Notes under the pieces: model-generated
What the model was told of the DNA's origin: nothing
Seen by the model: the letters and a program-made list of their open reading frames with translations, nothing else
The model's database searches: none
Made by a program: the position numbers and the translations under genes
Source: Allosalinactinospora lopnorensis
GTDB lineage: Bacteria > Actinomycetota > Actinomycetes > Streptosporangiales > Streptosporangiaceae
Direction of reading: 5' to 3'
DNA: 64,000 bases
Assembly: GCF_000981225.1 (NCBI RefSeq)
Contig: NZ_LAJC01000003.1
Span: 1-64,000 of the forward strand
Shown: positions 7,804-27,332 of the stretch, piece by piece
Position numbering within the stretch: the first letter of the stretch is position 1
How the letters are laid out: the number at the start of each line of letters is the position of its first letter

Positions 7804-8697
7804 ATGGATATGGACGCCATCGATTCCGACTGCGCCCGGCGGGCGATGATCTCCCTCACCGGACTCGCCCTTGGCGACGGGTTCGGGCAACGCTTCTCCG
7901 CTGCGCCGGGCATGGGCCCTTCCGGTGAGTGGCGGCTCCCGCCGGGGCGGTGGGAGTGGACCGATGGCACCGAAACGGCCTGCTCGGTCTATACGGTGCT
8001 GCACCGCTACGGACGTATCGACCAGGACGCGCTGGCGGCGGAGTTCGCCGCCCGTTTCGATCCCGGACGGGGGTATGGGGCGGCCACCCAGCAGTTGCCG
8101 CGCAACGCGGGCGGCGACTGGCGTGAGCTCGCCGCGAGCCGGTTCGACGGGGCGGGGTCCTTCGGTAGCGGAGCCGCGAAGCGGTCGGCGCCGCTGGGCG
8201 CCTGGTTCAGCGACGACGTGCCCGAGGCGGCGCGCCAGGCCGCGCTGGCGGCGGAGGTGACCCACGCTCACCCCGAGGGTGTCGCCGGGGCGGTCGCGGT
8301 CGCCGTGGCCGCGGCGATCGCCGCGCGCCGGGAACCGATCGGGGCGGGGGTGTTCCTGAACGAGGTCCTCGGCCACGTCCCTTCCGGGCAGGTGCGCGAT
8401 GGTGTGCGCGACGCCCGTGCGCTGCTCGTCGTCTCCGGCCCGGTCGCTGTTGCGGGTGAGCTGGGCTGCGGGAAGCACAGCAGTTCCCAGGACACGGTGC
8501 CGTTCGCCCTGTGGGCCGCGGCCAAGCAGCACGACGACTACCCTGCGGCGCTGTGGGAGACCGCCCGGGCGGGCGGAGACGCCGGCACCATGTGTGCGAT
8601 CGTCGGCGGCATCCTCGCGCCCCGGGTGCCCGGCGGCCGGCTGCCCCCCGAGTGGCTCTCCCACGGCGAACCGCTGCCGGAGTGGGTGAGCCTCTGA
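7804..8697 (+). CDS. ADP-ribosylglycohydrolase (DraG/ARH) family protein with altered metal-binding motifs
   Basis: 297 aa from the ATG at 7804 (a GTG at 7768 is the alternative, adding 12 residues). The ARH fold is clear: GLALGDGFGQRF at the N-terminus, GSGAAKRSAPLG in the middle, HAHPEGVAGAVAVA, and GGDAGTMCAIVGGI near the C-terminus. The canonical metal motifs T-D-D-T and D-T-D-T read T-D-G-T and D-A-G-T, so one Asp is lost at each site. The family removes ADP-ribose from proteins or nucleic acids; here activity is doubtful. It stands divergent from nirB and convergent with the PIN toxin gene, inside the nitrate/nitrite block. No Shine-Dalgarno is visible, so translation may be leaderless. 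Confidence 0.85.
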   Translation: MDMDAIDSDCARRAMISLTGLALGDGFGQRFSAAPGMGPSGEWRLPPGRWEWTDGTETACSVYTVLHRYGRIDQDALAAEFAARFDPGRGYGAATQQLPRNAGGDWRELAASRFDGAGSFGSGAAKRSAPLGAWFSDDVPEAARQAALAAEVTHAHPEGVAGAVAVAVAAAIAARREPIGAGVFLNEVLGHVPSGQVRDGVRDARALLVVSGPVAVAGELGCGKHSSSQDTVPFALWAAAKQHDDYPAALWETARAGGDAGTMCAIVGGILAPRVPGGRLPPEWLSHGEPLPEWVSL

Positions 8698-8716
8698 GTC
8701 TGGGGCCACGTGCAGG

Positions 8717-8730
8717 CCCGCGTACGCGGG
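8717..8730. terminator. GC hairpin between convergent genes
   Basis: CCCGCG-TA-CGCGGG, a perfect 14-base palindrome in the 52-base gap between the stops of the ARH gene (8697, plus) and the PIN gene (8750, minus). A bidirectional hairpin terminator is the simplest reading, although no T-run follows on either side. The stem and the following GGACGGTCC also resemble one repeat of an actinobacterial type I-E CRISPR array, but there is a single copy only. Confidence 0.4.
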
Positions 8731-8749
8731 GACGGTCCGGCGTGTTCGG

Positions 8750-9163
8750 TCAGGCCAGATTCTCCAGCAGGTCACGGGGCGTGACCGCCGGCGGACTGAG
8801 GTCGGTCTCAAGGAGATCGGCGTCTCCGGTGACGATGACGGCGCCGGCGGTCTCGGCGAGAGCGACCAGGTAGTTGTCGTCCGGGTCGCGCACCTTCCGC
8901 GACGGTGCTCCCGGATCCGGGTGGAGATCGGCCTTGCCGCCCAGGGTTTCCACGAACGCAACCGCGTCAGCGAGGCTGAGCCAGCGGCGGAACTTCGGGC
9001 GGGTCAGTACCGAAGCCAGCTCATCGAGAAGCTGCTGGGTGACAACGGCGGCGATCCGATCGGACATGACCGCCTCGACCACCCGGGCAGGAGTTCCGTA
9101 GGGGTTGATGACCGCCGCGATCCACACGTTGGGGTCGATGACAACGGTGACCGGCTTGTCCAC
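8750..9163 (-). CDS. PIN-domain toxin (PIN_3 family, VapC-like)
   Basis: 137 aa. The four acidic positions of PIN nucleases are visible: Asp in VVIDPNVWIAA, Glu in LLDELASVL, Asp in VRDPDDNYLVAL and Asp in IVTGDADLLE. The wording matches the 'putative toxin-antitoxin toxin component, PIN family' group. PIN toxins are Mg-dependent ribonucleases, kept inactive by the partner antitoxin. Its GTG start follows the antitoxin TGA with no gap (TGAGTG), so the pair is translationally coupled. It lies downstream of the nas operon on the same strand. Confidence 0.85.
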   Translation of the reverse strand: MDKPVTVVIDPNVWIAAVINPYGTPARVVEAVMSDRIAAVVTQQLLDELASVLTRPKFRRWLSLADAVAFVETLGGKADLHPDPGAPSRKVRDPDDNYLVALAETAGAVIVTGDADLLETDLSPPAVTPRDLLENLA

Positions 9164-19131: not shown

Positions 19132-20028
19132 TCACGCCGCCGTGGGCACGTCTCCGGTACCCGTGCGCGTGCGGCGCGCGGACCGGCCCGCCGCCAGGCG
19201 GCCCGCGATTCCGTGGCTCGGGGAGAGCAGGTAGGCCAGGGTGAACGCGCACGCCTGGGCGACCACGATCGCGCCGCCGGTCGCAATGTTGAGGTGGAAG
19301 CTAGCATAGGTTCCCAGGACGGAGGCTGCGACCGATACGGTCGCCGCGATCAGCAGCATCCGTTCGAACCGGTCGGTGAGCAGGTAGGCGGTCGCGCCGG
19401 GGATGATCACCATGGCGACCACGAGGATGATGCCGACCGCCTGCAGTGCGATCACCACCGTCACCGACAGCATCCCCAGCAGCAGTGCCTCCAGGCGGCG
19501 CGGATTGAGGCCGATCGCGTGGGCGTGCACCCGGTCGAAGGCGTACAGGGTGAGGTCGCGGTGCTTGAGTGCCACGGCCACCAGCACCACCGCGGCCATG
19601 ATCAGGATCTGGACGATCTCGGAGTCGGAGACCCCGAGCACGTTGCCGAAGAGGATGTGCATCAGGTCGGTGTCACTGGGGATCCTGGAGATCAGCACCA
19701 CACCGACCGCGAACAGGGCGGTGAACACGATCCCGATGGCGGCGTCCTCCTTGACCCGCGAGGTCCGGTTGACCACGCTGATCAGCGCCACCGATCCCGC
19801 GCCGAACACCAGCGCTCCCGCGGCGAACGGCAGCCCGAACAGGTAGGCGAGCACCACACCGGGCAGCACCGCGTGCGAGACCGCGTCGCCCAGCAGCGAC
19901 CAGCCGATCAGCGTCAACCAGCACGACAGGACCGCGCAGATCGCACCGGCGACCACGCTCACCAGGAGCGCGCGCTGCATGAAGTCGAACTGGAACGGCA
20001 GGACGAACCATTCCACCAACGCGGTCAT
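19132..20028 (-). CDS. Metal (Mn/Zn-type) ABC transporter permease
   Basis: 298 aa with about eight or nine hydrophobic helices. Family signatures of the ABC-3 permeases: CWLTLIGWSLLGDAVSHAVLPG near residue 40 and VIALQAVGIILVVAMVIIPG near residue 195. It forms the membrane channel for manganese or zinc with the ATPase and lipoprotein encoded upstream. Its ATG overlaps the ATPase stop by four bases (ATGA). The three genes form one operon read leftwards. Confidence 0.9.
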   Translation of the reverse strand: MTALVEWFVLPFQFDFMQRALLVSVVAGAICAVLSCWLTLIGWSLLGDAVSHAVLPGVVLAYLFGLPFAAGALVFGAGSVALISVVNRTSRVKEDAAIGIVFTALFAVGVVLISRIPSDTDLMHILFGNVLGVSDSEIVQILIMAAVVLVAVALKHRDLTLYAFDRVHAHAIGLNPRRLEALLLGMLSVTVVIALQAVGIILVVAMVIIPGATAYLLTDRFERMLLIAATVSVAASVLGTYASFHLNIATGGAIVVAQACAFTLAYLLSPSHGIAGRLAAGRSARRTRTGTGDVPTAA

Positions 20029-20771
20029 CGTGTCCTCTCCCCCACTGCCTGCGCCTCGATTCCGAACGCCTCGAACAGCCGGTCCGGTGCCAGTACCTCG
20101 TCAGGGGCGCCGTGCGCGATCACCCGGCGCTGCAGCAGCACCGCCTCGTCGCAGAACTGGGGGACGCCGGCCAGGTCGTGCGTGGCGACCAGCAGCGTGT
20201 GGCCGTCGTCGCGCATCGCGCGCAGCACCTCGATGATGGTCGCCTCGGAGCGCTTGTCCACCCCCGCGAACGGTTCGTCGAGCAGGAACACATCGGCGCC
20301 TTGGGCGATGCCGCGCGCGACGAACGCCCGCTTGCGCTGCCCGCCGGAGAGCGCGCCGATCTGCCGGTGGGCGAGGCCGGTGAGGTCGGTGCGTTCCAGC
20401 GCGGCGGCGACGGCCTCGTGATCGGCGCGGCGGGGTCGCCGGGTGATGCCCATGTGCCCGTAGCGGCCCATCATCACGACGTCGATAACGCGGATCGGGA
20501 ACGCCCAGTCCACCTGTTCGGACTGCGGGACGTAGCCGACGATGCCCTTCCTGCGCGCGGCCGCCGGGGGGCGGCCGCGCAGCCTGACCCGGCCCAGCTC
20601 CGCCGGGACCAGTCCGAGGATCGCCTTGAACAGGGTGGACTTCCCGGAGCCGTTGGTGCCGAGAAGGCCGCAGATGCGTCCGGGGGCTACCGTGAGGCTC
20701 ACGTCCTCCAGCGCGAGTACGTCGTTGTAGCGGACCGTGATGTTCTCGGTCAGCAGCGCCGGAGTGGTCAT
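20025..20771 (-). CDS. Metal (Mn/Zn-type) ABC transporter ATP-binding protein
   Basis: 248 aa from the ATG at 20771. Walker A GTNGSGKST (about residue 37), signature LSGGQRKRAFVARG (about 145), Walker B DVFLLDEPFAGVD and the switch His in LVATHDLAGV. VPQSEQVDWAFPIRVIDVV is typical of Mn/Zn importers. The ORF is open far upstream (to 22412), but the fold begins here and the ATG overlaps the stop of the binding-protein gene (ATGA). It powers import through the permease encoded downstream. Confidence 0.92.
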   Translation of the reverse strand: MTTPALLTENITVRYNDVLALEDVSLTVAPGRICGLLGTNGSGKSTLFKAILGLVPAELGRVRLRGRPPAAARRKGIVGYVPQSEQVDWAFPIRVIDVVMMGRYGHMGITRRPRRADHEAVAAALERTDLTGLAHRQIGALSGGQRKRAFVARGIAQGADVFLLDEPFAGVDKRSEATIIEVLRAMRDDGHTLLVATHDLAGVPQFCDEAVLLQRRVIAHGAPDEVLAPDRLFEAFGIEAQAVGERTR

Positions 20772-21715
20772 CGCCGGTTCTCCTCTCCGGTCAGCCCCGC
20801 CACGATGGTCTCGGCGTCGTAGCGGAGCAGGTCGAGGTAGCTGGGGACGGGGCCGTCGGCCTCGGAGAGCGAGTCGACGTAGAGCTCGCCGCCCATGTCC
20901 GCCCCGCTCTCCTTGGCGACCTGGCGCTGGGCGCCGTCGTTCACCGTGCTCTCGCAGAACACCGTCGGTACGTCGTTGTCCTCGACGAATTCCACGACGG
21001 AGGCGATCTGCCGCGGGGTCCCCTCGCTGTCGGCGTTGACCGGCCAGAGGTAGCTCTCCTGCAGTTCGGCGTCGCGTGCGAGGTAGGAGAACGCACCCTC
21101 GCAGGTAACCAGGGCGCGCTGGTCGCGGGGAAGCCTGCCGAGCTCGGTGTCGAGGAACTCGCCGATCTCGGCGATCTCGGCTTTGTACTCCTCGGCGTTG
21201 GCCTCGTATGTTTCGGCGTTCGCGGGGTCGAGGTCGCTGAGCGCGTCGCGGATGTTGTCGGTGTAGATCCGGGCGTTCCGCGGTGACATCCAGGCGTGCG
21301 GGTTGGCCTGGCCTTCGTAGTCGCCCGAGGAGATGGGGATGGTCTCGACACCGTCGCTGAGGGTGGCGGTGGGGGCGTCGATCCGTTCGGTGAACTGTGC
21401 GAACCAGGCTTCCAGACCGAGGCCGTTGTCCAGGATGAGGTCGGCGTCCTGCCCGCGCACCAGATCGTCGGGGGTGGGCTCGTAGCTGTGGATCTCCGCG
21501 CCGGGGCGGGTGAGCGACTCCACCTCGATCTCGTCCCCGGCGACGTTGCGGGCCATGTCGGCGAGCACGGTGAACGTGGTGAGGGCCTTGGGCGGCCCGT
21601 CCTCGGAGGCCGATGACGGCAGGCCGGAACAGGCGGGCGCGGCGAGCACGGCGAGAGCCGCGGGAAAGACCATCGACGATCGGGTTAAAGAAGACCAATC
21701 TCGAATGTTCGGCAC
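20768..21715 (-). CDS. Metal ABC transporter substrate-binding lipoprotein (ZnuA/PsaA family)
   Basis: 315 aa. A short basic N-tail, a hydrophobic stretch and a lipobox-like LAAPAC at residues 24-29 mark a lipoprotein. Metal ligands of the cluster A-I family are visible: His in AEIHSYEPTPDD, His in NPHAWMSPRN, then an acidic pair in the C-lobe (VFCESTVND and YVDSLSE). There is no His-rich loop, which slightly favours manganese over zinc. The GTG at 21715 gives a proper signal peptide; the ATG at 21673 would remove its positive charges. A -10-like TATGAT stands 11 bases upstream of the GTG. Confidence 0.9.
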   Translation of the reverse strand: MPNIRDWSSLTRSSMVFPAALAVLAAPACSGLPSSASEDGPPKALTTFTVLADMARNVAGDEIEVESLTRPGAEIHSYEPTPDDLVRGQDADLILDNGLGLEAWFAQFTERIDAPTATLSDGVETIPISSGDYEGQANPHAWMSPRNARIYTDNIRDALSDLDPANAETYEANAEEYKAEIAEIGEFLDTELGRLPRDQRALVTCEGAFSYLARDAELQESYLWPVNADSEGTPRQIASVVEFVEDNDVPTVFCESTVNDGAQRQVAKESGADMGGELYVDSLSEADGPVPSYLDLLRYDAETIVAGLTGEENRR

Positions 21716-21726
21716 ACCAAACTATT

Positions 21727-21732
21727 ATCATA
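21727..21732 (-). promoter_or_regulatory. Probable -10 element of the metal ABC operon
   Basis: TATGAT on the minus strand inside an A/T-rich island (TATGATAATAGTTTGG), 11 bases before the GTG of the binding protein. There is no Shine-Dalgarno, so the mRNA is likely leaderless or nearly so. A weak dyad in this island could be an operator for a Fur- or DtxR-family repressor, but it does not match a box I know well. Confidence 0.45.
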
Positions 21733-21870
21733 GGAGAGCCGTGCCCCGATAGGCGGCTCCCCGGTGCCCGGCAGGGATGCGATTCCCCTAACGTGAGGCG
21801 CGAAGGGAACCGGAGAGCGGACGAAGGGAGGCCGGGGCCGGCCCGGTCAGCGGGAGCCCCGAAGGCACCG

Positions 21871-22662
21871 ATGACCGATCCGAGGTTGCACACGGTGCTC
21901 AGCGACATCGGCGCCATCAACGCGTTCTTCGCGGTCGACCCCGAACCGCCGGACGAGGGCCGCCACCCGGTGGCGGCCCTGTGGAACCGGCCGGACCTGC
22001 TCGCCGCCGAGATCGCCGGCGTACGGACCAGGCTGGCCGAAAGAGCCGGATGCGCCGAGGCCGACGTCGAACCGCGCGTCGCCGCGTCGATCCTGTACCA
22101 AGGGCTGGCCTCGCGCCTGCTCTCCCCGGTGATCGGCGCCGTCCTGTGCCACGGGCGCAGCCCCGAGCCCGCCGCATTGTGCTGGTTCCCCGTACGGTCG
22201 GGGCCGCTGGCGTTCGCGCTGGACGATGGAGCCGGGAGCATCACACTCGGCGGCGGGGCGGCGGGAAACCTCCGCGAGGCCGCGGACCTGGTGGGTGAGC
22301 ACGTGCTGCACGGGCTTCTCGCGCCGATCGGTGCGGCACTGCGCGCCCAGGCCAAGGTGGCGCCGCGGCTGCTGTGGGGCAACGCCGCCTCTTCTCTGGC
22401 TGGAGCGGTCACCGCATTGGCCGCGGCCCGGCCGCAGCGGGCCGATGACGCCTACACGGTGGCCGGTCAGTTGCTCGCCGGCGAGCAACTGACCGGCCAG
22501 GGGGAGTTCGTCCGCCCCGGTGGCGGCCCGCGGCGCTTCTTCGTCCGCACCAGCTGCTGCCTGTACTACCGGATCCCCGGCTGCGCGAAGTGCGGAGACT
22601 GCGCTCTGCTCTCCGCTGGAACGCGCCTCGCGCAGTGGGCCGAGACGCCTCCCGCCGGTTGA
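21871..22662 (+). CDS. FhuF-like (2Fe-2S)-binding protein
   Basis: 263 aa. The C-terminus FVRTSCCLYYRIPGCAKCGDCALL carries the C-C-x10-C-x2-C arrangement of FhuF-type ferric-siderophore reductases (positions 22546-22611). The N-terminal 200 residues are helical with an FhuF-like middle (RVAASILYQGLASRLLSPVIG). Such proteins release iron from siderophores in the cytoplasm. GAAGG stands 5 bases before the ATG. It is divergent from the metal ABC operon, and the shared 155-base region carries both promoters. Confidence 0.82.
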   Translation: MTDPRLHTVLSDIGAINAFFAVDPEPPDEGRHPVAALWNRPDLLAAEIAGVRTRLAERAGCAEADVEPRVAASILYQGLASRLLSPVIGAVLCHGRSPEPAALCWFPVRSGPLAFALDDGAGSITLGGGAAGNLREAADLVGEHVLHGLLAPIGAALRAQAKVAPRLLWGNAASSLAGAVTALAAARPQRADDAYTVAGQLLAGEQLTGQGEFVRPGGGPRRFFVRTSCCLYYRIPGCAKCGDCALLSAGTRLAQWAETPPAG

Positions 22663-22692: not shown

Positions 22693-22893
22693 TCAGGCGC
22701 GTGTGGGCCACTCCGGCTTCTCGTCCCCCTCGTTCTCCTGCGGGGGCGTGGCCGCCGGGTCGGTCTCCGAGGGCTCGTGCTCCCCGCCGACCTCGTTGCC
22801 CGCCACCGGAGGGCTGTCCGCCGACCGCCGGTCGGCCAGCGGGCGGTCGTCGTCCTGCTGCTCGTCTTTCCTGTCGTCGCTGTCGCGGTTCAT
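22693..22893 (-). CDS. Small, highly charged hypothetical protein
   Basis: 66 aa, almost entirely Asp, Glu, Arg, Gln, Ser and Pro, predicted disordered and cytoplasmic. AAGGA lies 7 bases before the ATG at 22893 (a GTG one codon earlier is also possible). No family recognised. It is 69 bases downstream of the 462-residue protein gene on the same strand and could be the last gene of that unit. Such acidic small proteins are common in salt-tolerant actinobacteria. Confidence 0.6.
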   Translation of the reverse strand: MNRDSDDRKDEQQDDDRPLADRRSADSPPVAGNEVGGEHEPSETDPAATPPQENEGDEKPEWPTRA

Positions 22894-22962
22894 CACTGGT
22901 TCCTTTCCGTTGCCTGTCTCCCCCGGCCGCCCGCCGGGTCTTTTCCGGCGCTCTGGTGCGGC

Positions 22963-24351
22963 TCAGCCGATCAGGTCCACGTCGTCACGGGCTTTCAGGA
23001 AGTCGGCCGCCGTGGCCCACGGCAGCGACTCGGGAAGCGGGTAGGTGCGGCGGATCCGGGTCAACTCGCGGTGCGCCTCGGCCAGCACGGCGAAGTCGCG
23101 CGGGAACCTATCGGGGTCGGTCCCGAGGAAAACGCCGAGCTTGGTCGCCCGGTCCAGGACCCGTTTCCATTCCTGTACCGGCGCCAGCCCCACCGATTCC
23201 ACGCCGTGCGAGAACAAGGCAAGACGGATCTCCTCGAAGTCCGGGGCCCCGTCAAGGTAGCTCTCCAGGGCCCGCAGCGAGTTCTCGGTGTTAAACACCA
23301 TCCAGAACGGCACCGATCCGGTCTTGAGCGTCCAGAACGGCTCGGTCAGCATGAAGCTCTCGACCAGCAGCCGCCCGGTCGGCAGGCCGCGACGCTCGTA
23401 CCAGTCCCGGTAGAGATCGGCCACGGCCGGGCTGAGGGACTCCGGCTCGGCGTAACGCAGCCGGACCAGGTTCCACCCCTCTTCCGCGGCGAGTTCACGC
23501 AGGTCATTGAGGATCGCAGGCTCGAAACCCCATTCGGCCTCAGGTGAGTCGCCGTCGGGCTCCGGGCCGCGCCAGGCCTCGTGGGGGAATCCGTGGCTCT
23601 GGAGGAACTCGCGGACGCGCTCGCTTCCCCGGTGGAACTCTTCCTTCGTGGCCCCGCCGAGTGCCCCGTGCTGGAAGACGTACTGATCGCTGACACGGGT
23701 GGTCGGCCAGCGCAGCCCGCAGTCGGAGATGACGAGAGTGCCGCCCGGGGCGAGCCTGCGGCGCAGGAAGAACCGGTAGGGCGCGGGCAGCCGCCGCCAC
23801 TTGACCCGGAAGTAGGCCATGTACTCCACCATGAGCCGGTCCTGGGCGGGATCGTGCATGTGGTGCACGTTCCACTCGGGGTTGCGGGCCGCCAGCTCCA
23901 GTCCTGTCGACCGGAGCTTGTCGAGGTCCTGTGAGGCATCGTCGGGGTGCACCCCGTGCCGCCGAACCGGGACGAGCAGCGTCTGGGGCAGCCAGGGCGC
24001 CTCCACAGCGGCGGCGAGATGAGTAAGGGCCCCGTTGGCGGAGCCGATGAACGCCACCTCGTGCTGGCGGTCCGGGTAGTGCCCGGCGACCCAGCTCGCC
24101 AGGTCGTCGGAACGCACATCCTTGACCTCGCCACGCCGGATCGCCTCTGACCAGCCGGCGATGGCGTAGGTCTGCTCCTTGGCCGCGCGCGGCAACCGGT
24201 TGGCTCCGCGCATGAACCTGATGGTCGCGGGCTCGGCCTTCTTCGGAACGACACCGGTGAACGGGAACTCCCGGCCGGACAGGTAGTAGCTGAGTCCTCG
24301 CAGCATCGCGGTGGCCGAGTCGAACCCCGCAACGGCTCGATCCGGTTTCAT
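22963..24351 (-). CDS. Unrecognised 462-residue protein coupled to an alpha/beta hydrolase
   Basis: 462 aa, no signal peptide or membrane segment. Two stretches recall a Rossmann-like or hydrolase-like fold: EVAFIGSANGALTHLAAAVE near residue 100 and LAPGGTLVISDCGLRWP near residue 210, the latter like the strand after a methyltransferase core. No S-adenosylmethionine or GxSxG motif is complete. The C-terminal 100 residues (ALFSHGVESVGLAPVQEWKR) look helical. Its ATG overlaps the stop of the hydrolase gene (ATGA), so the two are made together. I cannot assign a function. Confidence 0.8.
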   Translation of the reverse strand: MKPDRAVAGFDSATAMLRGLSYYLSGREFPFTGVVPKKAEPATIRFMRGANRLPRAAKEQTYAIAGWSEAIRRGEVKDVRSDDLASWVAGHYPDRQHEVAFIGSANGALTHLAAAVEAPWLPQTLLVPVRRHGVHPDDASQDLDKLRSTGLELAARNPEWNVHHMHDPAQDRLMVEYMAYFRVKWRRLPAPYRFFLRRRLAPGGTLVISDCGLRWPTTRVSDQYVFQHGALGGATKEEFHRGSERVREFLQSHGFPHEAWRGPEPDGDSPEAEWGFEPAILNDLRELAAEEGWNLVRLRYAEPESLSPAVADLYRDWYERRGLPTGRLLVESFMLTEPFWTLKTGSVPFWMVFNTENSLRALESYLDGAPDFEEIRLALFSHGVESVGLAPVQEWKRVLDRATKLGVFLGTDPDRFPRDFAVLAEAHRELTRIRRTYPLPESLPWATAADFLKARDDVDLIG

Positions 24352-25097
24352 GGGGTTCCTTCCTCTTCGAGGAAATCGGAGACAAGGTCGGCCAGGGTCT
24401 GCGGGGCACCCACCGACACCGTGTGGCCCTGCCCCTCGACCGTGCGCAGCCTGCCCGACGGAAGCAGCCGGGTCACCTCCTCGGCCCAGGGGCGCGAGCA
24501 GATGTGGTCGCCGCTTCCGCGGACCACCAGCGCCGGAACATCGATGTGCGGGAGCTTGTCCTCGAACGGGTCGTGCATGCTCTCGGCGTAGGCCCGCAGT
24601 GTCCGGCGCGGTCCCGCGTCCATGTAGTCGGCCGCGTTCATGGGGAGTAGCCGCAGGGGCTCGCTGGGTGAGGTGAGCAGCCCCCGCATGGCGATGCCGC
24701 GCGCCGAGCGCATCCGGGGATCCATGGTCGGTCCGACGAGCAGCACCGACGAGACCAGCTCCGGTCTGCTCTGGTACATCTCGGCGACGATCTGGCAGCC
24801 CATCGATGTCCCGAGCAGGCAGGCGTTCTTCAGGTCGCGCTGCTGCATCCACGAGGCGCACGCGCCGGCGAGTTCCAGCAGCGTCAGGGAGGATTTGCGG
24901 CTCCGGCTGCGCCCGAAACCGGGAAGGTCCACCGCCCACGCCTCGTGGCGTCCCGCCAGCGCCCGCACGACGGGGAGTGTCTGGCGGGAGGAGACACCCG
25001 CCCCGTGCACGCAGACCACGGGCGGGCCGGGTCCGGGAAGCCCCCAGCTCACGACCGGGTCTCCCCCGACCTCGTCGATGTAGCGGGTCAACGTCAT
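24348..25097 (-). CDS. Alpha/beta-fold hydrolase
   Basis: 249 aa from the ATG at 25097 (an ATG at 25133 would add 12 basic residues). Oxyanion-loop HGAGVSS, nucleophile elbow LLGTSMGCQIVAE (Ser in G-T-S-M-G), acid in VRGSGDHICS and the catalytic His in VEGQGHTVSV. Substrate unknown; the overall layout is that of C-C bond or ester hydrolases. It is the first gene of a two- or three-gene unit with the unrecognised 462-residue protein, overlapping it by four bases. No clear ribosome site is seen at either start. Confidence 0.85.
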   Translation of the reverse strand: MTLTRYIDEVGGDPVVSWGLPGPGPPVVCVHGAGVSSRQTLPVVRALAGRHEAWAVDLPGFGRSRSRKSSLTLLELAGACASWMQQRDLKNACLLGTSMGCQIVAEMYQSRPELVSSVLLVGPTMDPRMRSARGIAMRGLLTSPSEPLRLLPMNAADYMDAGPRRTLRAYAESMHDPFEDKLPHIDVPALVVRGSGDHICSRPWAEEVTRLLPSGRLRTVEGQGHTVSVGAPQTLADLVSDFLEEEGTP

Positions 25098-25354: not shown

Positions 25355-26548
25355 ATGACGAAGCACCCGGACGGCAGCGCGGTACGGGATGGGGCGCCGC
25401 CGAGGGTGGCCGTGGTGACCGGGGCGAGCGCCGGCGTGGGCCGGGAGGTGGCCCGGACGCTGGCGGCCGCGGGCTGGGACATCGCGCTCATCGCACGCGG
25501 CGAGGCGGGGCTGGACGCCGCGGCCGGCGAGGTCGAAAGGGCGGGGCGCAGAGCCCTCGCGCTGAGCGTGGACATGGCCGGCCCCAAGGCGGTCGCGGAG
25601 GCGGCCACCAACGTCGAGGACCGCTTCGGCGAGATCCACCTGTGGGTGAACACGGCCATGGCCTCGGTCATCGCGCCTTTCACGCAGATCACGCCGGACG
25701 AGTACGCCCGCGTCACCGAGGTGTGCTACCTGGGCTACGTGCACGGAACGCACGCCGCGCTGGAACACATGCTCCCGCGCGACCGGGGGGTCATCGTCCA
25801 GGTCGGCTCCGCGCTCGCCTACCGCGGAATCCCCCTGCAGACGGCCTACTGCGGCGCCAAGCACGCCGTGCGCGGGTTCTGCGACTCGCTGCGGGCCGAA
25901 CTCCTACGCGAGCGCAGCCGGGTCCGGGTGACCGAGGTGCACCTGCCGGCGGTGAACACGACGCAATTCTCCTGGGTGCGCTCCCGGCTGCGCGGTCGGC
26001 CGCGGCCGGTGCCGCCTGTGTTCGATCCCGCGGTGGCCGCGCGGGCGGTGGCGTTCGCCGCGCGACGCCCCTACCGCCGCGAGTACTGGGTGGGCGGCTC
26101 GACCATGGCCACGGTGCTCGCCTCCCGCATCGCCCCGCGCCTGCTCGACCATTACCTGGCCCGTACCGCCTATGAGGCGCAGGAACGCGAGGAAGAGGCC
26201 ACCGGCGGTGCCGACAACCTCTACTCTCCGGTGGACTCGGGGGCCTCGGGTGCCGATTTCGGCGCCCGAGGCCCTTTCATCGCCGAGTCCCGGCAGCGCA
26301 GTGCCAGATGTGGCTCAGCCGTCACCGCGACGCCGCCGCCGCGGTGGTGCTGGGGGCGGGCGCTGGGGCGGCCGCCGTCCTGCGGAGGCGCCGCCGCTGA
26401 GAGCGTGGGGCCCGCTAGGTCGAGGCAACGCCGAGCCGGCGCATCAGGGACAGGTTGTCCGAGTAGCCGTGCTCCCGGTGGGGCTTGCCGTTTCCTCCTC
26501 CGCCTGAAGGCGAGGATATCCCCGGAGGGATTCAGACGGAGAGATTAA
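25355..26548 (+). CDS. Short-chain dehydrogenase/reductase with a frameshifted membrane tail
   Basis: SDR core in residues 18-250: VAVVTGASAGVGREVARTL (NAD(P) site), catalytic Ser in VGSALAYRG and YCGAKHAVRG (Tyr-x3-Lys). The tail LYSPVDSGASG onward is usual for a group of about 340-residue SDRs that end in a membrane helix and basic residues. Here the frame breaks at about 26305. If one C is restored, the frame continues MWLSRHRDAAAAVVLGAG and an Ala-rich helix to RRRRR and a stop at 26400. As written, the frame runs on to 26548 with meaningless sequence. A 15-pair hairpin with loop ATTT (26241-26274) lies in the linker. Substrate unknown. Confidence 0.82.
   Translation: MTKHPDGSAVRDGAPPRVAVVTGASAGVGREVARTLAAAGWDIALIARGEAGLDAAAGEVERAGRRALALSVDMAGPKAVAEAATNVEDRFGEIHLWVNTAMASVIAPFTQITPDEYARVTEVCYLGYVHGTHAALEHMLPRDRGVIVQVGSALAYRGIPLQTAYCGAKHAVRGFCDSLRAELLRERSRVRVTEVHLPAVNTTQFSWVRSRLRGRPRPVPPVFDPAVAARAVAFAARRPYRREYWVGGSTMATVLASRIAPRLLDHYLARTAYEAQEREEEATGGADNLYSPVDSGASGADFGARGPFIAESRQRSARCGSAVTATPPPRWCWGRALGRPPSCGGAAAESVGPARSRQRRAGASGTGCPSSRAPGGACRFLLRLKARISPEGFRRRD
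26415..26483 (-). pseudogene. C-terminal fragment of an unidentified protein next to an IS-like hairpin
   Basis: On the minus strand, directly after hairpin copy C, 22 codons read PHREHGYSDNLSLMRR followed by LGVAST and TAG (26415-26417). The reading is protein-like and ends cleanly, but nothing upstream continues it, so it may be the tail of a gene cut by an insertion. I do not recognise the family. Confidence 0.3.
26491..26530 (-). repeat. IS200/IS605-like right-end hairpin, copy C
   Basis: CGCC-TGAA-GGCG (26501-26512) with TTTCCTCCTC before and GGATATCCCCGGAGGG after, the same layout and orientation as copies A and D. No transposase gene is adjacent. It separates the SDR gene from the mntR-like gene. 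Confidence 0.45.
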
Positions 26549-27332
26549 TCCGGCGCAGTAGGCGCGAAGGAAACCGAAGATCCCTTTGCGGACGGATGGG
26601 GCCGCTCCTGCGACCGGCCGCACGCGAAGGGGTCAGTGGTTGGAGGCGAGCCACAGGCTTCCGCCGCGACAAGCCCCAGGGGCTGGTTGCGCTGCTCGCC
26701 AGGCGGACCGACGCGGATCATCAGGGAGCCGCCGAACGGCTGGCGCTCGACGACCTCGACGCGCATGCCGATGCCGATCCGCTGTTCGGCGAGGTAACGC
26801 AGCAGGTCGGGGTCGGTGTCGTTGACCCGGACGATCACGCCTGCGGTTCCGGCGGCGACCTCGGAGAGCAGGAAGGTCTCGCGCTCGACGATCTCGCCCT
26901 CGCTGGTGGGGATGGGGTCGCCGTGCGGGTCCACCCGCGGATCGCCGAGGTAATCGGCGATGCGCTCGACGAACTTGTCGGAGACCACGTGCTCCAGGAT
27001 CTCGCTTCGTCGTGCACCTCGTCCCACGAGTAGCCGAGCGCCTCGACCAGATAGGTCTCCAGGAGCCGGTGCCGGCGCAGCACCGCCAGCGCGGCCTTGG
27101 TTCCGGTGTCGGTGAGGTGGACGTCGCCGTAGCGCTGATGTTCCACCAGCCCCAGCTCGCTGAGCTTGCGCAGCATGCCGGAGACCGAGGAATTGGACAC
27201 CGCCAACCGTTCGGCCATCCCGGATATGGTCACCGGGCCTGAGCCACGCTCCTGAAGATCGTAGATGACCTTCACATAGTCCTCGACGGAGGTGGACGGC
27301 CGACCGGATGCGTCATTCCCCATGGCCGACAC
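26545..27332 (-). pseudogene. mntR: DtxR/MntR-family metal-dependent repressor, frameshifted
   Basis: The first part (27332 to about 27005) reads VEDYVKVIYDLQERG, then the winged helix TISGMAERLAVSNSSVSGML and the dimerisation start RRHRLLETYLVEALGYSWDE. The second part is one frame over (about 27005 to 26545): EILEHVVSDKFVERIADYLG, PHGDPIP, then an SH3-like FeoA domain with GVIVRVNDTD and FGGSLMIRVG. Restoring one G at about 27003 (GCG-AG to GCG-GAG) joins them into a normal protein with the metal ligands of MntR (Glu and His in the EILEHVVSD helix). It would repress Mn transport genes, possibly the ABC operon at 19-21.7 kb. Confidence 0.8.

Follow-up and report, generated by a model that had tools for sequence, protein, structure and literature searches.

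A 462-residue orphan protein, here called P1, is encoded together with an alpha/beta hydrolase in the 64,000-nucleotide stretch of Allosalinactinospora lopnorensis DNA analysed here (contig NZ_LAJC01000003.1, positions 1 to 64,000; hereafter the window). The pairing of the two genes is evident in their structure, their overlap, their conservation and their joint loss. P1 appears to represent an undescribed family, as far as sequence searches reach. We tentatively propose, at somewhat less than an even chance, that P1 and the hydrolase form a two-gene catalytic unit in which P1 would be an enzyme of an undescribed family acting on the same compound as its partner. Operons that combine a hydrolase with an oxidoreductase are common, and catabolic operons containing a hydrolase are a known kind; here the third component belongs to an orphan family with a confident structural model, 33 invariant residues and members in five phyla, and with no assignable fold or function.

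P1 and its upstream hydrolase form a conserved gene pair

The strand and coordinates of the two genes, as well as those of a small third gene downstream, were confirmed on the sequence, and so was the ATGA overlap from which an initial annotation of this DNA had deduced that the two proteins act together. The elements of the pair are as follows:

24348..25097, minus strand: alpha/beta hydrolase (Abhydrolase_6) gene, 249 amino acids, ATG start, Ser98/Asp197/His225 intact
22963..24351, minus strand: P1 gene, 462-amino-acid orphan protein, ATG start, apparent lobes at about 70-301 plus the C-terminal tail and about 304-437
24348..24351, minus strand: ATGA stop-start overlap, 4 bases shared by the hydrolase stop and the P1 start

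The reading frame of P1 is open for 658 codons, which is weak evidence for a gene because this high-GC stretch keeps the other frames open as well (about 230-330 codons). P1 is regarded as a gene because it is conserved, with 37-67% identity between the window copy and 50 other intact members, including named records from four other phyla.

The loci examined comprised a first set of 71 and 15 more, with 51 distinct intact copies of P1 and 11 additional ones, and the 62 intact loci came from Actinomycetota, Pseudomonadota, Nitrospirota, Rokubacteria and Bacteroidota. L123 (P1 identical to that of L023), L057 (diverged) and L166 (no tblastn match) were dropped before counting, and L111, in which P1 is split, was counted as broken. 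Genes were called by a home-made picker with script-chosen start codons; the neighbour lists are approximate, and poor for the AT-rich L019.

A hydrolase homologue lies directly upstream of P1 on the same strand in 53 of the 62 intact loci (42 of 51 in the first set and all 11 added ones, one of them cut by a contig end), showing the pair to be conserved. The stop-to-start distances of the 42 measured pairs include 26 overlaps (20 of exactly 4 bases), 14 spacings within 60 bases and 2 larger ones. Pairwise distances among the P1 proteins correlate with those among their hydrolases (Mantel r 0.89, 0 of 2000 permutations, n=42), a correlation that could come partly from shared descent. The midpoint root of the P1 tree is weakly supported; paired loci fall to either side of it and are represented in most clades, and a five-row clade (L142, L145, L137, L044 and L043) includes just one paired locus. 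The unpaired loci look scattered, consistent with a pairing that is old and has been lost or rearranged here and there.

The hydrolase itself matches Abhydrolase_6 (PF12697) with 75.5 bits (cut-off 26.3), and its catalytic triad is maintained in the P1-adjacent homologues (Ser 42/42, Asp 42/42, His 41/42, with L046 differing). It falls far under the cut-offs of all 25 listed NCBIfam models, among them PcaD (62.9 against 255.85), BioH (57.1 against 206.95) and MenH (55.9 against 208.55), and the next hydrolase paralogue in its own genome is 32% identical.

Decay, co-occurrence and distribution of the pair

P1 is broken or partial in 21 loci (L024, L042, L049, L106-L120 and L163-L165), and an intact hydrolase lies directly upstream in three of these (L042, L109 and L117), where the only damage to P1 is a split into two frames, for which a sequencing error may be responsible. 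Hydrolase fragments are retained in L113 and L119, and a hydrolase homologue is located elsewhere in the stretch in L049, L114, L116 and L120. This co-loss is supportive rather than independent evidence, because one regional deletion can remove both genes. Short P1 remnants occur within the window's order (L106, L107, L112, L113, L115, L116, L163, L164 and L165) and suggest repeated decay of the unit.

Among 100 related genomes, the window's own included, close hydrolase homologues (E<=1e-30) were found in 5 of the 12 with a P1 match versus 2 of the 88 without one (Fisher p 0.0002), and the four non-self close matches, at 50-53% identity, all lie beside P1. The proportion of 5 in 12 understates the pairing, because diverged hydrolases beside P1 fall below this threshold. 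Co-conservation, joint decay and co-occurrence lend good support to joint action of the two proteins, which we infer with the reservation that 9 of the 62 loci lack a hydrolase directly upstream.

Genome counts of P1 were based on matches at E<=0.001, with the centre genome included each time. P1 was matched in 12 of 100 related genomes, 12 of 396 genomes of the window's phylum and 60 of 345 genomes of its order (remnants included). In the phyla to which the Rokubacteria and Nitrospira genomes belong, 4 of 95 and 1 of 118 genomes, respectively, had a match, as did 1 of 247 Bacteroidota genomes. The Rokubacteria and Nitrospira records are metagenome-assembled, and L017 and L018 are metagenome-assembled genomes. 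Five plasmid records carry P1, those of Nonomuraea (chromosome-sized), Paraburkholderia, Rhizobium, Caballeronia and a Geminicoccaceae fragment; Pseudomonadota were sampled through plasmid records only. The P1 of G854, a genome of the window's own family, is identical to that of Nonomuraea gerenzanensis (Streptosporangiaceae, Actinomycetota). Four genomes harbour two copies each: G879 (L139 and L145), G820 (L122 and L137), G023 (L040 and L043) and G093 (L046 and L048). Both G879 and G820 pair one copy with a hydrolase and the other with a short-chain dehydrogenase/reductase (SDR).

The patchy distribution (12/396 phylum genomes and 1/247 Bacteroidota), the plasmid carriage and the repeated decay would suit a toxin-antitoxin or anti-phage module, an explanation that we consider highly improbable. 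PADLOC yielded no family for P1 at E<=1 and just a marginal TAP-like match for the hydrolase (E 0.0016), neither 50,697 phage records nor viral contigs yielded a relative of P1, and oxidoreductases and hydrolases are the families most often seen among the neighbours. A phage or defence origin of the pair was rejected on the absence of phage or viral relatives and of a PADLOC match for P1.

P1 matches no described family

The initial annotation had found no family for P1, a statement borne out in Pfam, NCBIfam, PADLOC, PHROGs and the PDB sequences. P1 had no Pfam match at E<=1, its one NCBIfam match was the methyltransferase model NF045667 (11.4 bits, cut-off 155), and PHROGs produced a single insignificant row. 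No PDB sequence matched P1 significantly as a single query, and P1 profiles of 14 and 51 members gave nothing there below E 0.4; positions 78-115 of the profile weakly matched 5x6s, an acetylxylan esterase (E 0.42). Scans of individual members (14 against Pfam; 51 against Pfam and NCBIfam) returned scattered insignificant matches alone; the Pfam Esterase model PF00756 matched one of the 51 members (E 0.012), and none of the Pfam methyltransferase models matched P1 or any of the 51. The profile searches thus provided no clear match to a described family, and no paper on the P1 family was found among open-licence PubMed Central papers.

Conserved residues and predicted structure of P1

Across the 51 distinct members, 33 columns are invariant, many of them polar. 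D11, D167, Q170, D171, R182, K184, E271 and E273 are kept in all 51, other invariant positions include F10, S12, G103, G107, A108, M165, Q227, G229 and G233, the whole run E271-G275 is invariant, and further ones are P348, W350, F353 and W395. The conserved motifs are M-x-D-x-x-Q-D, R-x-K, Q-x-G and E-A-E-W-G. Comparison of conservation with predicted secondary structure places many of the invariant residues in loops that follow the strands of lobe 1.

P1 had been described from the letters as having one Rossmann-like and one hydrolase-like stretch with no full catalytic motif, a fair description. Residues 103-108 read G-S-A-N-G-A and resemble a hydrolase nucleophile elbow, in a loop of the form G-S-x-N/S-G-A after the first strand; position 105 is occupied by Ser in 33 members, Ala in 14 (the window copy included), Thr in 2, Gly in 1 and Pro in 1. 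P1 as an active alpha/beta hydrolase was rejected, since the elbow nucleophile is not Ser in 18 of the 51 members and no profile scored above a Pfam cut-off. A strongly diverged relative is encoded in L057 (8111-9526, plus strand), with 31% identity over residues 44-380; the D/QD and EAEWG motifs are absent by eye.

An AlphaFold2 model of P1, built from a 14-member alignment, was predicted confidently (predicted local distance difference test (pLDDT) 92.4, predicted template modelling score (pTM) 0.93) and has no significant fold match in the PDB. The protein apparently comprises two Rossmann-like lobes, one of about residues 70-301 plus the C-terminal tail and one of about 304-437, as read from the strand and helix order and the matched ranges of the model. 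Foldseek searches of the whole model against PDB chains and viral models gave nothing at E<=0.001, with a match to 7acy at E 0.041. VIA-align aligned the whole model with Cwp6 (Z 9.9, root-mean-square deviation (rmsd) 5.4, 216 residues) and SLPL/SLPH (Z 9.2, rmsd 4.1, 209 residues), which we take to be CWB2 cell-wall-binding proteins; its best whole-model alignments span Z 8.7-9.9 over 208-216 residues, and unmatched models typically reach 7-8. The separate fold search covered lobe 1, and lobe 2 was searched within the whole model. Predicted alone (pLDDT 91.7), lobe 1 had no Foldseek match in the PDB at E<=0.001, and its best VIA-align match was RecR (Z 6.6, rmsd 3.7, 91 residues), with assorted unrelated proteins lower. 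HHalign of lobe 1 against lobe 2 (14 sequences) revealed no similarity (probability 0.2%) and hence no detectable internal duplication.

These searches bear on the possibility, which we judge unlikely, that P1 belongs, very remotely, to a known alpha/beta family (as an alpha/beta hydrolase, an S-adenosylmethionine (SAM) methyltransferase or a Toprim/CWB2-like Rossmannoid) and has kept that family's chemistry. The hints in this direction are weak: the 5x6s, PF00756 and NF045667 matches, the alignments with Cwp6 and SLPL/SLPH, and that of lobe 1 with RecR. They are countered by the lack of any PDB match at E<=0.001 in Foldseek for the whole model or lobe 1, by the unconserved elbow nucleophile and by the lack of an HHalign similarity between the lobes.

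Genes around the pair

Two further genes adjoin the pair in the window:

22693..22893, minus strand: small acidic protein gene, 66 amino acids, downstream of P1
25355..26548, plus strand: SDR oxidoreductase (NF005495/PRK07109 type), divergent from the hydrolase

The acidic protein that the initial annotation placed after P1 is indeed encoded there. Its role as a conserved third member of the unit was rejected: the only tblastn matches to it in P1 loci other than the window's (E<0.001) were in L112 (42%, next to a remnant of P1) and in L049 (51% across 33 residues).

About 260 bases separate the start of the hydrolase from that of the SDR, which scores 418.3 bits against NF005495 (cut-off 264). 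An SDR (>=150 bits) was found within 2.5 kilobases (kb) in 13 of 49 P1 loci (L034 and L035 left out), 4.7 times more densely than farther out in the same loci, a count inflated by the origin of the five queries in five of those 13 loci, with 8 of 44 remaining loci positive once these are set aside. The window SDR is probably a looser associate of the P1 unit, and SDRs recur beside P1 elsewhere. A neighbour scan covered 89 genes at positions +1 and -2, after removal of hydrolase homologues and with L034, L035 and L019 left out; the SDRs at -1 in L044, L137 and L145 fall outside it, and the window SDR was entered by hand in place of a single spurious entry for the window. The commonest Pfam families were SDR (10 of 89, one being the hand-entered window gene), the overlapping Epimerase model (5) and Abhydrolase_1 (4).

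Individual loci carry other genes beside P1. L050 has a class III polyhydroxyalkanoate (PHA) synthase-like gene directly downstream (8019-9110, minus strand; 312 bits, below the 365 cut-off), and L051 has a gene for a thiamine pyrophosphate (TPP)-dependent enzyme nearby. A protein of 534-538 amino acids, which to the eye has an apparently membrane-type N-terminus and a C-terminal half resembling a hydrolase, is encoded downstream of P1 in L052 (9703-11319), L053 (7086-8702) and L055 (6883-8487); the L052 copy has no Pfam match, and this gene was rejected as a general member of the unit, relatives having been seen in L051 and L054 only.

Farther out in the window, a DtxR/MntR-like metalloregulator gene (26545-27332, minus strand; identified by eye) is split between two frames, its N-terminal part shifting frame near the middle, and is either a pseudogene or a draft-assembly error. 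A metal-type ATP-binding cassette (ABC) transporter operon, recognized by eye and encoding a permease, an ATPase and a substrate-binding protein, occupies 19132-21715 (minus strand), near the split metalloregulator. A FhuF-like ferric reductase protein with a FhuF_C 2Fe-2S domain is encoded at 21613-22662 (plus strand), convergent with the P1 unit.

A possible two-gene catalytic unit

In the catalytic reading that we tentatively prefer, P1 and the hydrolase would constitute an old, mobile two-gene metabolic unit whose products are kept in step by translational coupling. The hydrolase would be a serine alpha/beta hydrolase of an ordinary kind, opening the acyl bond of an ester, a lactone or a similar compound, and P1 a soluble, cytoplasmic, two-lobed Rossmann-like enzyme that acts on the hydrolase's substrate or its product; the shared substrate may be of ester or carbonyl type. 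The putative active site of P1, derived from secondary structure and conservation, would lie in a cleft at the C-terminal ends of the lobe-1 strands (D167/Q170/D171, R182/K184, Q227 and E271/E273/W274), and lobe 2 (P348/W350/F353) would cap it. Rossmann-like enzymes usually bind their ligands in loops following strands, and the site is proposed in lobe 1 because many of the invariant residues sit in such loops. An SDR may contribute a redox step in many loci, with P450 chemistry sometimes alongside.

Several observations weigh against this reading. The chemistry of P1 is not given by any fold or sequence match found, and the 51 members share no strictly invariant His or Cys. The hydrolase is not directly upstream in 9 of the 62 intact loci. 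An SDR takes its position in L044 (with a hydrolase beyond, on the other strand), L137 and L145, and a cytochrome P450 does so on the Rhizobium plasmid pR132503 (L020, 8745-10004, plus strand), where it overlaps P1 by 4 bases; an annotated alpha/beta hydrolase lies further up on the other strand, and the plasmid has no hydrolase homologue at E<=1e-12. The Bacteroidota locus L019 has an intact P1 and no hydrolase neighbour, in a genome without a homologue at E<=1e-12. L035, L041 and L142 have the hydrolase in another arrangement relative to P1, and in L124 it was not found, though the upstream bases resemble a hydrolase end. Conversely, a close hydrolase like that of L043 (67-68% identity) is present in G005 and G055, and the 12 kb fetched around each contains no match to P1. 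The pairing label on the P1 tree is not significantly clustered (7 changes against a shuffled mean of 8.5, with 30 of 500 shuffles as low). The neighbours are mixed, with no Pfam family in more than 10 of the 89 genes, and the inflated SDR count and the possible shared-descent component of the distance correlation belong here as well.

The same loci bear on the main rival to an enzymatic role, namely that P1 is a non-catalytic partner of the serine hydrolase (a regulatory subunit, a substrate-presenting protein or a scaffold), which we find rather doubtful. Intact P1 adjoins an SDR in L044, L137 and L145 and a P450 in L020, the genome of L019 combines an intact P1 with no hydrolase homologue, and the 33 invariant columns are rich in Asp, Glu, Arg, Lys, Gln and Trp and are more suggestive of a ligand site than of an interface; neither of the last two points is decisive. 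A partner role is favoured by the tight overlap (26 of 42), by the joint decay and by the elbow-like loop whose nucleophile position is not conserved, a feature that could mark a degenerate partner. Moreover, a hydrolase homologue (E<=1e-12) is present, elsewhere or otherwise arranged, in 7 of the 8 searched genomes that carry an unpaired P1 copy, the exception being the Bacteroidota genome, and two of these seven (G820 and G879) hold a second, paired P1 locus. P1 without a hydrolase is therefore firmly seen only once, partnering in trans is possible, and the argument against a partner subunit is weakened, which also detracts from the catalytic reading.

A broader form of the catalytic reading, which we hold to be somewhat doubtful, is that P1 founds an undescribed enzyme superfamily of two Rossmann-like lobes with a cleft rich in Asp, Gln, Glu, Arg and Lys and is the constant core of a mobile unit, in which the hydrolase partner could be swapped for an SDR or a P450 and whose reaction is as yet assigned to no gene. 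Unassigned biochemistry is to be found in conserved orphan proteins such as P1, and the pairing offers a way to test the question, as the substrate of the hydrolase would point to the role of P1.

Comparison with known systems

P1 differs from class I SAM methyltransferases in its score against NF045667 (11.4 versus 155 bits) and in the absence of a Pfam methyltransferase match. Its residues 81-115 are similar to an alpha/beta-hydrolase nucleophile elbow in their helix-strand-G-x-x-x-G-A-helix arrangement and weak esterase matches, but differ from it in carrying Ala, Thr, Gly or Pro at the nucleophile in 18 of 51 members, the window copy included. The CWB2 proteins Cwp6 and SLPL/SLPH give the best alignments of the P1 model, slightly over the level of unmatched models. 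CWB2 proteins consist of tandem repeats of one module; HHalign with 14 sequences detected no similarity between the P1 lobes, and P1 has no sequence match to CWB2 proteins. The divergent neighbour in the window is akin to the PRK07109/NF005495 SDRs (418 versus 264 bits), a model whose name carries no substrate, and an SDR is not always beside P1. The upstream hydrolase differs from the PcaD, BioH and MenH models, and its substrate is left unassigned because its scores lie far below the cut-offs of the listed NCBIfam models. It is like the Abhydrolase_6 (PF12697) serine hydrolases both in profile score and in its Ser, Asp and His residues.

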